A stretch of DNA of 64,000 nt from Paenibacillus lentus. Its GTDB lineage: Bacteria > Bacillota > Bacilli > Paenibacillales > Paenibacillaceae. Location: contig NZ_CP034248.1 of the NCBI RefSeq assembly GCF_003931855.1, positions 620,001 through 684,000 of the forward strand, given 5' to 3'. The notes beneath the pieces are model-generated. The model saw only the letters and a list, made by a program, of their open reading frames with translations, was not told the DNA's origin and did no database searches. Below, piece after piece: positions 19,509 through 52,743 of the stretch (position 1 is the stretch's first letter; each line of letters starts with the position of its first letter). The position numbers and the translations under genes are program-made.

Positions 19509-21494
19509 TTAGACCTTGAATACATGGATTAACTGCTTAAGCTCCTGCATCATTTCATCTAGAGCTTTAGAAGACTCAGAAATAGTCTCCATAATCGCGC
19601 TTTGTTGCTTAGATGTGACCGATACGGACTCCGAATTTGTAGCAGATTCCTGAGCGGCTCTGAACATTTCCTCCACCGAGGCCGTGATCTCTTCGGAGCT
19701 GGCGGACAGCTGCTGTGTGGTCGAGGATACATCATGCATTTGAGTCGACACTGCCCGAATCGAGGAGAGAATATGCCCAAAGGTCTTCCCAATGTTCTCT
19801 ACACGTGAAATCCCTTCACCCATCACTTGAATACTATGCTCAACGGCTTCGGCCGTCGTAGTCGTGGAATTCTGTATCACATTAATGAGCTCAACGATGC
19901 CCGAGACCGATTCATTCGTTTGCTCTGCCAGCTTCTTCACCTCATTGGCCACGACCGCAAAGCCTCGGCCATGCTCCCCGGCTCTAGCCGCCTCGATCGA
20001 GGCATTAAGCGCCAGAAGAGCGGTCTGGTTGGAAATCATCGAAATGACGTCAACGATCTGGCCGATTTCCTTAGAATGACTGGCCAATTCCTGTATTCCT
20101 TTAGCAGTATGCTGTGAAGCTTCACCGATGATGTTCATTTGAGCAATTGCCGACTGAACCTCTTCATACCCGCGTTCCACTTCATTGGTCACGGCTTCCG
20201 ATTGATCGGTAACGTCTACGGCCGTTTCCGATATTCGCTGCACACCGATAGACATTTCCTCCATCGCTCTTGCCGATTGCTCAGCGCCCATAAGCTGTGT
20301 CCGAGCGCCCAGAGCCACCTCGCCAATAGCTAAGGCAATCTGGCCAGAAGCCTCTGCAGATTGATTCGCCGATGTGTGAAGCTCGGAGGATGCCGTAGAT
20401 ACTTGATTTACCGTCAGATTTATTTTTTGCACAATATTGGACAAAGAGTCAATCATGGCGTTGATATTTATACCCATTTGGCCGATCTCGTCTTTCGATT
20501 GCACTGGTATTCTCTGCTTCAAATCTCCCTCGGCTACATATTTCATTACATTCGACACACGAACAATTGGTTTGGCAATAAGACGGGTAAACAATAAGGA
20601 TATGATTGACACAACCACTACAGAAATAATAATTGTAATGATGGAAATAGTTCGCGCGTTCAGTACCTTCGTGTTAATTTCACTTTCTGGCACGGTAATG
20701 ATCAGCTTCCAATCCGTATTCGGAACGGTGCCAAAATAACTGATCAGCTTCTCTCCATTCTCATCCCGGTAGCTAACCGAACCATCGTTCTGGCTTAAAA
20801 CTGTATCAAAAGCCGCCTTTTTCTCTGGCGTATTCTCGAACTCTTCAATTGATTTACCGATCCGCTCAGAATCCGGAGAACTATAGTACACTCCCTTGCT
20901 GGAAATAAAGTATCCATACCCGCTTTCCCCTAATTTGATCCGTTCGCTCATTTGTCCAAGGGTATCGGGCGTCAGTGAGAAGGCAACGCCGCCAAGGAAA
21001 TCTCCATTATTGCCGACGATAGGAACAATTACCGGAATGATGTAAATATCTAGTGGTTCCAAGTAGGACATATCCGCAACAGAAGGCTGCTTCGTCTCCT
21101 TAGCTTTCAAAAAATAAGCCGCATCACTCATATCCGAACTCATACCGAGCATATTCGTTAGGAGTCCCTTGTCATCAATAAGGCTGTATCCCTCTGACTG
21201 GTTGTCACTATGATCCAAAATAGTAAGCAAGGGAAATATTTCCTCCGCCTTCATGGTCTTAAATTCTTCATGCTCAGAGATAAGTCCCTCTACGGCACTT
21301 GTCTTGCTTTTGATCCATTCGTCAATTCGGTCTATATTCATTTGAAGTGTCTGCTCCGCCATCTCTTTGGTATCGTCACGGACCACACCACTAAAATAGC
21401 TCGTGAAGAAAATTGTAGATATCAACAGTGGTACGATTGATAAGGTTAGCAAAACCGCCGACCACTTCCATTGAATAGAATTAAACTTTTTCAT
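19509..21494 (-). CDS. Methyl-accepting chemotaxis protein with dCache sensor
   Basis: A 661-residue chemoreceptor. It has a membrane segment near residues 13-33, a large extracellular double-Cache ligand domain (about 40-280), a second membrane segment (about 287-308), a HAMP domain ([20 protein letters not shown]) and a cytoplasmic signalling helix bundle. The hairpin tip is recognisable in [21 protein letters not shown], interrupted here only for length by its flanks. It senses a small ligand outside the cell and feeds the CheA/CheY system. It lies next to a xylanase gene, so a plant-derived ligand is possible, but there is no direct evidence. Confidence 0.92.
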
Positions 21495-50361: not shown

Positions 50362-50400
50362 AAAACAGCTCCATACCTAAGCAGGTATGGAGCTGTTTTT
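50362..50400. terminator. Strong hairpin terminator after importer operon
   Basis: AAAACAGCTCCATACCT / AGGTATGGAGCTGTTTT: 17-base perfect arms with a four-base loop AAGC. It works on both strands; on the minus strand it overlaps the end of the yvrJ-like remnant. Confidence 0.9.
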
Positions 50401-50553
50401 AGATTACCTGTAACAATTGATTTAACGATTTATCTAGTTGATCAAATTTATCTCCAATCGATTGCAACATGTAATAAATTAAAATATAGATAATGTAACA
50501 GGAAATCCTACATTTGTTGCTAACGATATCACATTTAAAATTTCCATATCCAT
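50399..50553 (-). pseudogene. YvrJ-like small protein gene with a one-base frameshift
   Basis: From the ATG at 50547 or 50553 (site GGAAGGGTG) the frame reads MEILNVISLATNVGFPVTLS and stops at 50479-50481. If one T is restored near 50493 (ACATTATC to ACATTTATC), the frame continues as IYILIYYMLQSIGDKFDQLD through to a stop at 50399. The joined product has the YvrJ-family look: NVGFP motif, one hydrophobic segment, amphipathic end. In Bacillus subtilis yvrJ lies next to sigO and rsoA, as here. A sequencing error or true decay are both possible; no slippery site for programmed frameshifting is seen. Confidence 0.6.
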
Positions 50554-50591
50554 CACCCTTCCACTTCAGAACTCTTCCACTAATTAGGGAA

Positions 50592-50620
50592 ATTATAGTT
50601 TGTTTTTACAACTAGCACAA
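50592..50620 (-). promoter_or_regulatory. SigA-type promoter of yvrJ-like gene
   Basis: On the minus strand: -35 TTGTGC (50615-50620), 17-base spacer, -10 TATAAT (50592-50597). It lies back-to-back with the promoter of the sigma-like genes. Confidence 0.55.
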
Positions 50621-50651
50621 AAAATATGATATAATACAAGAACAAACGTTC
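50605..50651 (+). promoter_or_regulatory. Promoter with LexA-type (SOS) box before split sigma genes
   Basis: Plus strand: -35 TTTACA (50605-50610), 19-base spacer, -10 TATAAT (50630-50635). GAACAAACGTTC (50640-50651) fits the Bacillus LexA/DinR pattern GAAC-N4-GTTC and covers the predicted transcription start. It suggests that the operon is turned on by DNA damage. The spacer is two bases longer than ideal. Confidence 0.6.
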
Positions 50652-50736
50652 CCATCATGTGTATCAGTTGTAAAATTACTCCCACATTTTCCCTATACTT
50701 AGACATTAACTTTTTACATAAAAGGGGTGCCATATT

Positions 50737-51087
50737 TTGGAAAAAGAAGAGAAGCGACAAACAACAATCTATGATTATTACAAAAGCGAAATTTATCGTA
50801 TTGGCTGGAGAATTCAATATCAAGCAAAAAAAGTCAGAAAACGAGAATGTCCTTTTTATGACTATAACTTTAGCTATCCTAATTTCGCCTCTATAACTGA
50901 GGATAAGATATGGATTAATGAAATTATGGATTCATTACCTCCCCAAGGAAAACTAGTTATAGATAAGCTATATTTTCAAGATTTAACTGAATCCGATGTG
51001 GCTCAGCAACTTAAAATTAGTCAACAGGCGGTGAACAAATGGAAACAAAAGATGCTCGAAAAGTTATCTCAGACGATAAATTATTAG
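50737..51087 (+). CDS. SigO-like sigma subunit (region 4)
   Basis: A 116-residue protein whose C-terminal half is a sigma-70 region-4-like helix-turn-helix (LPPQGKLVIDKLYFQDLTES, then DVAQQLKISQQAVNKWKQK). No region 2 is present, so it cannot be a complete sigma factor. The TTG start has AAAGGGG 8 bases upstream. The next gene overlaps it by 49 bp and supplies a region-2-like part, as in the Bacillus subtilis SigO-RsoA pair, where two proteins together make a working sigma factor. A LexA-type box precedes it. Clearly AT-richer than its neighbours. Confidence 0.7.
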   Translation: MEKEEKRQTTIYDYYKSEIYRIGWRIQYQAKKVRKRECPFYDYNFSYPNFASITEDKIWINEIMDSLPPQGKLVIDKLYFQDLTESDVAQQLKISQQAVNKWKQKMLEKLSQTINY

Positions 51088-51269
51088 AATTACTTAATTT
51101 GGCAAAAAAACAAGATCCTGAAGCTATGTTGCGACTCATTGATTTGTATAAAGAAGAAATCCAACAGGTTAGCAAATTTATCCGTCTACCTGAGGAAGAT
51201 GCAATTTCTACAATTATCCTTGAATTCTTAGAATTAATCCAAGATTCTGAATACAATACAGTCCAATAA
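51039..51269 (+). CDS. RsoA-like region-2 co-sigma protein
   Basis: A 76-residue protein overlapping the end of the SigO-like gene by 49 bp in another frame; AGGCGGTGA lies 5 bases before its ATG. The helix pattern (LLELLNLAKKQDPEAMLRLI, then DLYKEEIQQVSKF, and IRLPEEDAISTIILEFLELI) resembles the small region-2-like proteins of the RsoA / HTH_16 type that contact core RNA polymerase. I infer that it joins the SigO-like protein to form a two-piece sigma factor. Tight overlap suggests equal production of the two. Confidence 0.65.
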   Translation: METKDARKVISDDKLLELLNLAKKQDPEAMLRLIDLYKEEIQQVSKFIRLPEEDAISTIILEFLELIQDSEYNTVQ

Positions 51270-51338
51270 ATATTCTTCTTATTTCTAAAATTTCTGATTG
51301 ATTTGGTTGTTAAACTATCTTTTAAAATACCTATATAG

Positions 51339-51368
51339 TTGAGAGACAATTAAGCGCGCAACTCTCAA
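51339..51368 (+). repeat. Hairpin in leader of the unknown 150-aa gene
   Basis: TTGAGAG / CTCTCAA arms with a 16-base loop ACAATTAAGCGCGCAA. It lies 31 bp upstream of the ATG at 51400. TATATAG just before it could be a -10 box, which would put the hairpin in the 5' untranslated leader. It could be an operator or RNA control element. Confidence 0.45.
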
Positions 51369-51399
51369 ATCTATTTAAATCGGAAAGGGAGTAATAATT

Positions 51400-51852
51400 A
51401 TGGCAAGTTATCAAACAAGAGAGTTTAAGAAAAAGGTAACAATGACTTATGAACAAGCAAAAATGGCTAGAGATGCTCAAACTAACATGTATGAGCATGG
51501 AATTGTTAAACCAAACTCAAACTCATTGATTTCAGGTCTGGGCACTAGCGCATCGATCCTCACATTGTTTTTTACGCTAAGCAAAGCAGCTGTAATCGCT
51601 ACAGGTTTAACAACGCTTCTCTTCAGTGCATCACCGAATGAGAAAGAGGTTCTAAAAGATATGGTACAAACGGGTCTTCGAGAATTTAATAAAATCATAA
51701 AGCTATTTGAGGATAACCCTTCTTATAAAATGGTTGAAGTAGAACTACCATTTATTGAGTATAAACAACACGGTGAACTCCTAGCTCAATTCTTTACTGG
51801 AGCAGGTAATGTTATTCGAATTAACACAGGGAAGGGCTGGATTGTTTTATAA
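51400..51852 (+). CDS. Unrecognised protein with hydrophobic core, 150 aa
   Basis: No family recognised. Residues about 46-80 form a hydrophobic, small-residue-rich stretch (SGLGTSASILTLFFTLSKAA, then VIATGLTTLLFSA) that could be one or two membrane spans. The remainder is polar, with a basic N-terminus and a beta-rich end (VELPFIEYKQHGELLAQFF … GKGWIVL). AAAGGGAG lies 9 bases before the ATG. A strong terminator follows. Directly after the split sigma genes, it is a candidate target or effector of that sigma factor; a holin- or bacteriocin-related role is possible but unproven. Confidence 0.75.
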   Translation: MASYQTREFKKKVTMTYEQAKMARDAQTNMYEHGIVKPNSNSLISGLGTSASILTLFFTLSKAAVIATGLTTLLFSASPNEKEVLKDMVQTGLREFNKIIKLFEDNPSYKMVEVELPFIEYKQHGELLAQFFTGAGNVIRINTGKGWIVL

Positions 51853-51864
51853 ACCTGTAAAGTT

Positions 51865-51909
51865 TAGCGATCTGTTAATGGGCATTTATTGCCCATTAAC
51901 AGATCGCTA
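51865..51909 (+). terminator. Very strong terminator after 150-aa gene
   Basis: TAGCGATCTGTTAATGGGCA / TGCCCATTAACAGATCGCTA: 20-base perfect arms with a five-base loop, then CTTTATT. One of the longest perfect hairpins in the window. Confidence 0.92.
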
Positions 51910-52269
51910 CTTTATTATGAATTCTAATAGTGGCAACAATTGTTATTTTACTGTAAAATGATTTACTAAATGAGCATTTTTCAAAAATCTGATAACTATA
52001 ACTGCAAGTTTTTTGGGACATGAAAAGGGAGATTTGCACAATCAAGAAAATCACTTCACTTTGATATTCTCTTAGATAATTTATTTACGATAAAAAATAG
52101 ATAGTACACCCGATTTCATTTAGCCAACGTGACTTATGCACTTGCATGTTTTTCCCTTATCAATGTTTCAATCTTACTTAGTGAATGTGTATTTAAGGTG
52201 AATCCTATGCTTTCCCTTTCCAACAAACGGAATGATGCCAAGTAATATAATAGGTTAGGAGTGGCTGTA
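51910..52269. other. AT-rich intergenic region
   Basis: About 360 bp without a supported gene. Two small symmetries are seen near 51935-51965 (AACAATTGTT and ATTTTACTGTAAAAT). On the minus strand, 52134-52250 reads like a piece of protein (…SFRLLERESIGFT…), but has no start or ribosome site and may be a remnant. Confidence 0.5.
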
Positions 52270-52743
52270 TTGAAAACTAGAATCTCAAGCAATATGATTT
52301 TAAAGGTGGTTTTTACGATCATCGTGCTTTTCGTTTTATTTTACAAATACATTCCCCAGCATACGACTTTCCAAAAAGTCGTTTCTGACAAAATCTCACT
52401 ATCTGAGGTTGAAGAAATTAGAATTATAAAAACGTCTTACACCACATCCAAAGAACCCAAACAAGAAGAAGTAGTCATTCATGAATCGGATCAAATAAAG
52501 TCGATCATGAATAGCTTCAAGGATCTACAATTAACGACAGTCGTCGACCCAAGTATTAAGGATTCTACTACGGTCTATCATTTATATATCCAAGTATCTA
52601 AAGAAAGTAGGTTTCTTCTTAACTTTTACGATGGCACGATCTTAGAAGTTTACGACAGTAAAGCCAAGAAGAGACTTACGAATTATAAGATAAAAAATGA
52701 TTATAGCCCTGATAATGATATTGGGGGATACCTTGATCTATAA
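52270..52743 (+). CDS. Membrane-anchored protein of unknown function, 157 aa
   Basis: An N-terminal membrane anchor (ILKVVFTIIVLFVLFYK) is followed by an outside domain of about 125 residues with alternating beta strands (EEIRIIKTSY, TTVYHLYIQVSKE, FLLNFYDGTILEVYD). No family recognised; the pattern is like small extracytoplasmic beta-domains of Bacillales. The TTG at 52270 has AGGAG 8 bases upstream; a GTG nine bases earlier overlaps that site. It lies between the split-sigma island and the esterase gene, in the same AT-rich stretch, with about 33 bp to the convergent esterase. Confidence 0.6.
   Translation: MKTRISSNMILKVVFTIIVLFVLFYKYIPQHTTFQKVVSDKISLSEVEEIRIIKTSYTTSKEPKQEEVVIHESDQIKSIMNSFKDLQLTTVVDPSIKDSTTVYHLYIQVSKESRFLLNFYDGTILEVYDSKAKKRLTNYKIKNDYSPDNDIGGYLDL

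Follow-up and report, generated by a model that had tools for sequence, protein, structure and literature searches.

A likely SOS-controlled two-subunit sigma factor and its predicted effector protein in Paenibacillus lentus

We analysed a stretch of 64,000 nucleotides from Paenibacillus lentus (hereafter the window; positions 620001-684000 of a single 5.29-Mb contig, with coordinates below given as window positions), and especially one block in it that carries a sigma factor of the SigO-RsoA type split over two small genes, a LexA-type operator in front of them, a downstream gene of an unnamed family (ORF3) and, just outside, a gene for a membrane-anchored protein (ORF4). Control of this module by the SOS (DNA damage) response, rather than a chance motif, is likely from the sequence comparisons, because the operator recurs in distant relatives. 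The initial annotation had described the block as AT-rich, which was confirmed by a G+C content of 32.4% compared to 46.5% in the whole window and 48-49% in the flanks. Two strong hairpin terminators bound the block, one at 50362-50399 with T/A runs on both sides (-27.1 kcal/mol, z -8.3), which ends the transcripts of the upstream gene and of a yvrJ-like gene, and the other on the plus strand 3' of ORF3 at 51865-51909 (-38.8 kcal/mol, z -11.7 for 51855-51915).

The SigO-like gene (50737-51087, plus strand) has a TTG start, AAAGGGG at 50721-50727 and a product of 116 amino acids (aa). This protein matches Pfam Sigma70_r4 at residues 64-110 (E 7.8e-7), and full sigma profiles are matched over their C-terminal part alone (TIGR02937 from position 101 to 163 of its 165, 42.5 bits with a cut-off of 42.9); it consists of sigma region 4 only, and regions 2 and 4 are not found in one chain as in group V factors of the UviA/TcdR type. 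The RsoA-like gene (51039-51269, plus strand, 76 aa) overlaps it by 49 bp, and its product aligns with the partner proteins of relatives. Both the overlap and the layout, likened in the initial annotation to Bacillus subtilis SigO-RsoA, thus stand, and the linkage of the genes was also found elsewhere: the overlap is 49-55 bp in nearly all relatives with a detected partner (85 bp in L069), and 29 and 30 of the 48 ORF3 loci described below have the region-4 gene and the RsoA-like gene, respectively. SigO-like loci numbered 59, in 46 of 146 genomes. A purely local oddity was rejected, as the module recurs in other genomes. The same P. lentus genome has a second SigO-RsoA pair (4811438-4811764, minus strand; L002/L006), in which the sigma protein is 48% identical, the divergent yvrJ is intact and there is no LexA-type box.

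Many relatives of the SigO-like gene share an upstream layout of a divergent SigO-type promoter, a TATAAT-like -10 element and a SigO-type promoter towards the sigma gene, where the SigO-type promoter is GGTTGTAAA followed by CCCTATA about 24-25 bp away, start to start. The window has all three elements (a SigO-type promoter towards yvrJ at 50582-50613 on the minus strand, in the same position as in relatives; TATAAT at 50630-50635, the -10 of a presumed housekeeping promoter of the sigma operon; and the predicted feedback promoter of that operon at 50666-50697 on the plus strand) and in addition a SigO-type promoter before ORF3 (51305-51335, plus strand). One promoter motif is thus common to the sigma gene, yvrJ and ORF3, and ORF3 is therefore a predicted target of the sigma pair. 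In its strict form (GTTGTWAA-N11-17-CCTATA) the motif has three matches in the 5.29-Mb genome, two of them in the module, and its reversed control has two. A motif score of 2 or less was found upstream of 28 of 48 ORF3 relatives and in 212 of 3840 AT-rich control windows, which, like the 904 windows used for the operator below, were drawn from the same loci and include the true sites. The genome-wide search in eleven relatives gave 12 matches, about as many as the controls, and was not used as a regulon; these matches lay at sigma operons or, in six that were read, near unrelated genes, with one plausible target (L122). Directly after the ORF3 promoter, the leaders of the window (51339-51368, plus strand) and of L090, L092, L094 and L096 share the motif GAGA..GCGCGC-AGCTCTC, and the window leader has a short inverted repeat; an RNA structure found no support here, with three pairs, no covariation and a z of -0.9 for the window hairpin.

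The yvrJ-like gene (50400-50553, minus strand) lies divergently, as the initial annotation had it, but its frame is disrupted: the start is normal, with a YvrJ profile match below the cut-off (E 0.017) over the first 22 residues, after which a stop follows (50479-50481) and the remainder lies in another frame. YvrJ proteins weakly resemble BhlA holins at the sequence level, four of eight giving E of 0.1 or less to Holin_BhlA (PF10960), at best 0.0012 with 19.2 bits, below the cut-off of 22.6.

The LexA-type operator GAACAAACGTTC (50640-50651) begins 4 bp 3' of TATAAT and therefore covers the expected start site. Four exact GAAC-N4-GTTC sites occur in the window compared to 0.75 expected, and the three further ones are at 20779, 24085 and 63907. 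The stricter GAACRNRYGTTC is found at nine distinct places in the genome, and its reversed pattern is commoner (27 vs. 12 matches), so rarity proves nothing. What counts as evidence is that relatives carry the box in the same position, which also makes a chance origin unlikely. An exact core lies at most 260 bp upstream in 11 of the 59 SigO-like loci, with one mismatch in three more. Counted from -300 to +100 of the sigma start, GAAC-N4-GTTC was present in 14 of 29 ORF3-linked loci (12 of 24 clusters) and in 26 of 904 400-bp windows. In a tree of 62 SigO-like proteins (116 columns, a quick method, 25 of 54 inner branches open and several long branches), the box precedes 15 of the genes, and its label changes 7 times compared to 13.4-13.5 in shuffles, with none of 500 shuffles as low. 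The five rows nearest to the window (L050, L092a, L051, L090 and L053) are all boxed. To judge from the tree, the distribution fits gain and loss of the box alike. The initial annotation was correct in placing a LexA-type box at the predicted start site, but the box is not peculiar to this locus and is no local novelty.

LexA and RecA are present in the genome, and its own SOS genes bear similar boxes. The window's genome and all eight relatives compared (9 of 9) have CGAATRTATGTTC, one mismatch from the core, 61-102 bp before the approximate recA start; the lexA intergenic region has several one-mismatch forms of the box; and of the GAACRNRYGTTC sites, one is upstream of argR/recN-like genes and one before a DinG-like gene (named by eye), and others are intragenic. 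In this group, the half-sites are therefore of the LexA type. It is quite unlikely that the palindrome is instead bound by another repressor, dedicated to SigO-type operons, and that the module answers a different signal. The boxes of sigma genes do have A or G before GAAC (usually AAGAAC or AGGAAC) where recA has C before GAAT, which together with the commoner reversed pattern would suit such a repressor, but sites with A or G before GAAC also precede the recN-like and DinG-like genes and occur in the lexA intergenic region. The LexA consensus of Bacillus has the same half-sites and RNRY centre, and by eye no further regulator gene is common to the loci. Two other observations concern such sites. 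A run of about 27 G/C adjoins the recA box in L049 (near 2391-2402), either a variable tract or an assembly artefact, and a AAGAACAAATGTTCTA site lies 3' of a -10-like sequence ahead of a gene named by eye as a ComEC-like metallo-hydrolase lipoprotein (L041 1501, genome 2888791).

ORF3 (51400-51852, plus strand) codes for 150 aa with a hydrophobic stretch at about 43-76. It was described in the initial annotation as an unknown hydrophobic protein downstream of the sigma pair, which still applies, but the description has to be corrected in that ORF3 has its own sigma-type promoter, a family and a linked ORF4, which lies beyond the coordinates of that annotation. A search with the single sequence gave three relatives besides its own entry, and with two diverged copies from the genus added, 53 proteins of the family (the window's own included) were found among the best 8000 database candidates, under names that include Paenibacillus (mainly), Brevibacillus, Cohnella, Bacillus, Priestia and Lysinibacillus. 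Scanning of genome contigs gave no match with three close ORF3 sequences and 14 loci with 27 sequences. The family is patchy, being present in 5 of 40 genomes of the genus, 40 of 394 in the family and 16 of 398 in a sample of the class, six genomes of which are also in the family set. The forms of the B. pumilus group (216-217 aa) have an apparent N-terminal signal peptide by eye. An AlphaFold model from three sequences (pLDDT 69.7, pTM 0.65) shows one strand, four helices and, at the C-terminus, a sheet, and helices 40-57 and 60-76 form a hydrophobic hairpin, the least certain part of the model. ORF3 is most likely a membrane-active antibacterial effector resembling a bacteriocin. A phage origin was rejected, as nothing in the phage collection matched the relative P0009 and IMG/VR, scanned by pattern from the ORF3 alignment, gave no match either, although distant or unpatterned relatives could escape that scan. 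Anti-phage defence was rejected too: among the four window proteins, PADLOC matched only the sigma protein, with a CARF model at E 0.011.

ORF4 (52261-52743, plus strand, start at 52261 or 52270) is a membrane-anchored, DUF5301-like protein and a possible immunity partner of ORF3. Its N-terminus is hydrophobic (2.3), its domain should face outward by the positive-inside rule, and one member of its family is named DUF5301. The gene lies beyond the terminator and is therefore probably transcribed apart. For the linkage of the genes, 40 regions were fetched from the family and class matches, with fragments and broken frames left out (G202, G211, G222, G237, G333, G354, G362, G036, G505, G470 and one of four in G352) and with L096, L099, L093 and L098 standing in for G007, G020, G032 and G038. 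Together with L091, L094, L097, L100 and the window, 49 loci were scanned, 48 of which had an ORF3 of more than 120 codons (L209 was dropped); these include near-copies and fall into 35 clusters when grouped at 80% identity. Sequences of this analysis, some from the same loci, went into the profiles for ORF4, sigma, RsoA and YvrJ, and finding those genes is therefore favoured. Of the 48 loci, 29 have a region-4 gene, 30 an RsoA-like gene, 19 a YvrJ gene and 36 an ORF4-like gene (sigma in 24 and ORF4 in 23 of the 35 clusters). The ORF4-like gene was at most 500 bp downstream of ORF3 in 32 of 48, convergent in 27 and on the same strand in five, the window among these. In the 14 named loci, ORF4 kin adjoin ORF3 kin in ten, nine of them convergent, and two close relatives, P0004 of ORF3 and P0059 of ORF4, are on contigs of equal length (26660), probably one and the same contig. 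By genome, an ORF4-like gene occurs in 164 of 394: in 33 of 40 with ORF3 and in 131 of 354 without (hand count; Fisher P 3e-8). The pairing of ORF3 and ORF4 is real but not exclusive. Tandem ORF3 copies were seen in L195, L196 and L206, and in L206 each has its own ORF4-like partner.

Several relatives are instructive. Paenibacillus sinensis (L090) has the complete set of intact divergent yvrJ, AGAACAAATGTTCC, sigO, rsoA, SigO-type promoter, ORF3 and convergent ORF4. P. brasilensis (L092) also has the full set, with GAACATTAGTTC after the -10, in which the half-sites are retained and the centre is altered, and its mobilizable plasmid of 35 kb carries a second set without the box. In Cytobacillus firmus (L091) and Bacillus sp. 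NTK034 (L100) there is a different, larger split sigma factor of Bacillus type with the same box, followed by yvrJ and ORF3, and L100 additionally has a convergent ORF4. In L188, L190 and L194 the sigma gene is directed away from yvrJ and ORF3, and in L175-L177 a sigma gene was not found beside rsoA. The last observation, the disrupted yvrJ and the AT-rich block would all suit a module that is decaying or silent in this strain, an acquired remnant. We regard this as very unlikely, since neither the frames of sigma, RsoA-like gene, ORF3 and ORF4 nor any promoter or operator element is damaged, and since close relatives of ORF3 (89%) and of ORF4 (86% and 77%) keep their frames, though P0004 is short.

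Other cargo was found behind boxed sigma genes and the same type of promoter: a DUF4127 gene (L052 4236-6085) and, in L060, L061 and L062, a YkuD-domain (L,D-transpeptidase-type) gene after rsoA. Such cargo bears on another explanation, which accepts the SOS-controlled split sigma factor with ORF3 as its target but not a toxin/immunity pair: ORF3 would sit in the membrane or envelope and protect the producer when it is damaged, and the DUF5301-like ORF4 would be an envelope protein in its own right. That explanation would also suit the frequency of ORF4-like genes without ORF3 and the lack of a toxin family or fold match for ORF3. It nevertheless seems rather unlikely considering that ORF3 is patchily spread, has a plasmid copy and is duplicated in tandem in L195 and L196, that its partner gene is convergent in 27 of 32 cases and that YvrJ is present in 19 of 29 sigma-linked loci.

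Taking the operator, the shared promoter motif, the gene layout and the linkage across genera as they are read from the sequences, we consider it on balance probable that the module is an SOS-triggered, self-amplifying cassette of effector and immunity-like genes, with ORF3 as the effector and ORF4 as its guard. In undamaged cells, LexA bound to 50640-50651 over the start site would block the housekeeping promoter of the sigO-rsoA-like operon. DNA damage would remove LexA, both small proteins would be made, and one sigma factor would assemble from them, with region 4 in one half and region 2 in the other. The pair may then activate its own second promoter (50666-50697), locking the state, together with ORF3 (51305-51335) and, where intact, the yvrJ gene, which codes for a small membrane protein. 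For binding, assembly and feedback, SigO-RsoA of B. subtilis served as the model. ORF3 would act on membranes as an antibacterial, bacteriocin-like effector, ORF4 would most likely guard the producer and YvrJ may help in release. The release of a toxin or peptide, suggested already in the initial annotation, is something we infer, helped by the ORF3/ORF4 pairing and the weak similarity of YvrJ to BhlA.

Several observations weigh against the cassette. The profile comparison supported the region-4 half of the sigma pair, but the RsoA-like protein reached only 20.7 bits to HTH_16, below the cut-off of 22, and other RsoA-like proteins are likewise below it or without a match. The genus-wide SigO clade of the tree (31 rows, the second copy of the P. 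lentus genome included) has no box, the 15 boxed genes being among the other 31 rows, and 15 of the 29 ORF3-linked sigma genes, the plasmid copy among them, are without a counted box; in one of these (L100) a box lies farther upstream, ahead of a disrupted sigma frame. In 16 of 48 loci the stretch that was fetched holds neither a sigma nor an RsoA-like gene, and in L178, L179 and L097 a partner is missing altogether. ORF4-like genes are common without ORF3 (131 genomes), and the yvrJ of the window is broken. The peak hydropathy of the window ORF3 is borderline (1.66, with 0.91-2.31 over 48 relatives), the protein has no signal peptide, and it belongs to no known family and has no structural match in Foldseek (E 0.34 at best, searched with a model whose confidence was modest).

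Should many relatives of SigO-RsoA be DNA-damage switches for an effector/immunity pair, these sigma factors would have a signal and a cargo, and their split design a rationale. It could be, though we put it forward only tentatively, that SigO-RsoA-type split sigma factors, across a large part of their distribution in Paenibacillaceae and relatives, are SOS-armed effector/immunity switches, with ORF3 and DUF5301-like proteins as a new toxin/immunity pair, YvrJ as the release protein and the box-free genus-wide clade as a derived, domesticated form. The two-subunit design would then be a safety lock, because the harmful gene would stay silent until both halves had built up. Such a role would also point to some 50 unannotated candidate antibacterial proteins, and the operator with a split sigma gene could be a marker for more.

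Among sigma factors, SigO-RsoA is the known two-subunit case. No description of SOS control of SigO-RsoA was found in the literature searched, with most subscription papers outside its scope, and nothing was found there on SigO-RsoA with Paenibacillus or on a two-subunit sigma factor with SOS. In pore-forming colicins, a LexA-controlled effector with a hydrophobic hairpin is accompanied by a convergent membrane immunity gene; LexA acts there directly on the toxin gene, whereas here it would act via a sigma factor, and no homology is claimed. In B. subtilis, SigO-RsoA (YvrI-YvrHa) requires both of its halves, and its targets include the sigma and yvrJ operons (PMC10028694, PMC8103513). The module is similar in having a region-4 half and a putative region-2 half in two small proteins, a likeness of layout and not of directly compared B. 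subtilis sequences, and in the sigma operon and yvrJ as targets, which here are predicted from the shared promoter motif. The further target differs, being oxdC-yvrL in B. subtilis and ORF3 here, and the LexA-type operator is described as a feature of the module here, the region upstream of B. subtilis sigO lying outside the comparison. The TcdR/BotR/UviA sigma factors of toxin genes also have a sigma gene adjoining its cargo and matching promoters, but they are single-chain factors of another family (PMC4885068). Closest in logic is UviA-UviB-Bcn5 of Clostridium perfringens, in which UV or mitomycin C induces via SOS, with a putative LexA site and a dedicated sigma factor, UviB belongs to the BhlA family, the bacteriocin Bcn5 has no Sec signal and copies are on plasmids (PMC4459074, PMC9527704). 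An endolysin is also reported with Bcn5 (PMC4459074, PMC9527704), which was outside the profile searches here, and one paper terms uviB a putative immunity-related gene (PMC4459074). An SOS switch, a dedicated sigma factor, antibacterial cargo without a Sec signal, a small BhlA-type membrane protein and plasmid copies would thus be common to both systems, but UviA has regions 2 and 4 in one chain where the sigma factor is split here, the cargo families differ and the two are not the same family. Our best reading of the sequences is that the P. lentus module is a counterpart of UviA/UviB/Bcn5 in which a two-subunit sigma factor under SOS control drives an effector of an unnamed family.

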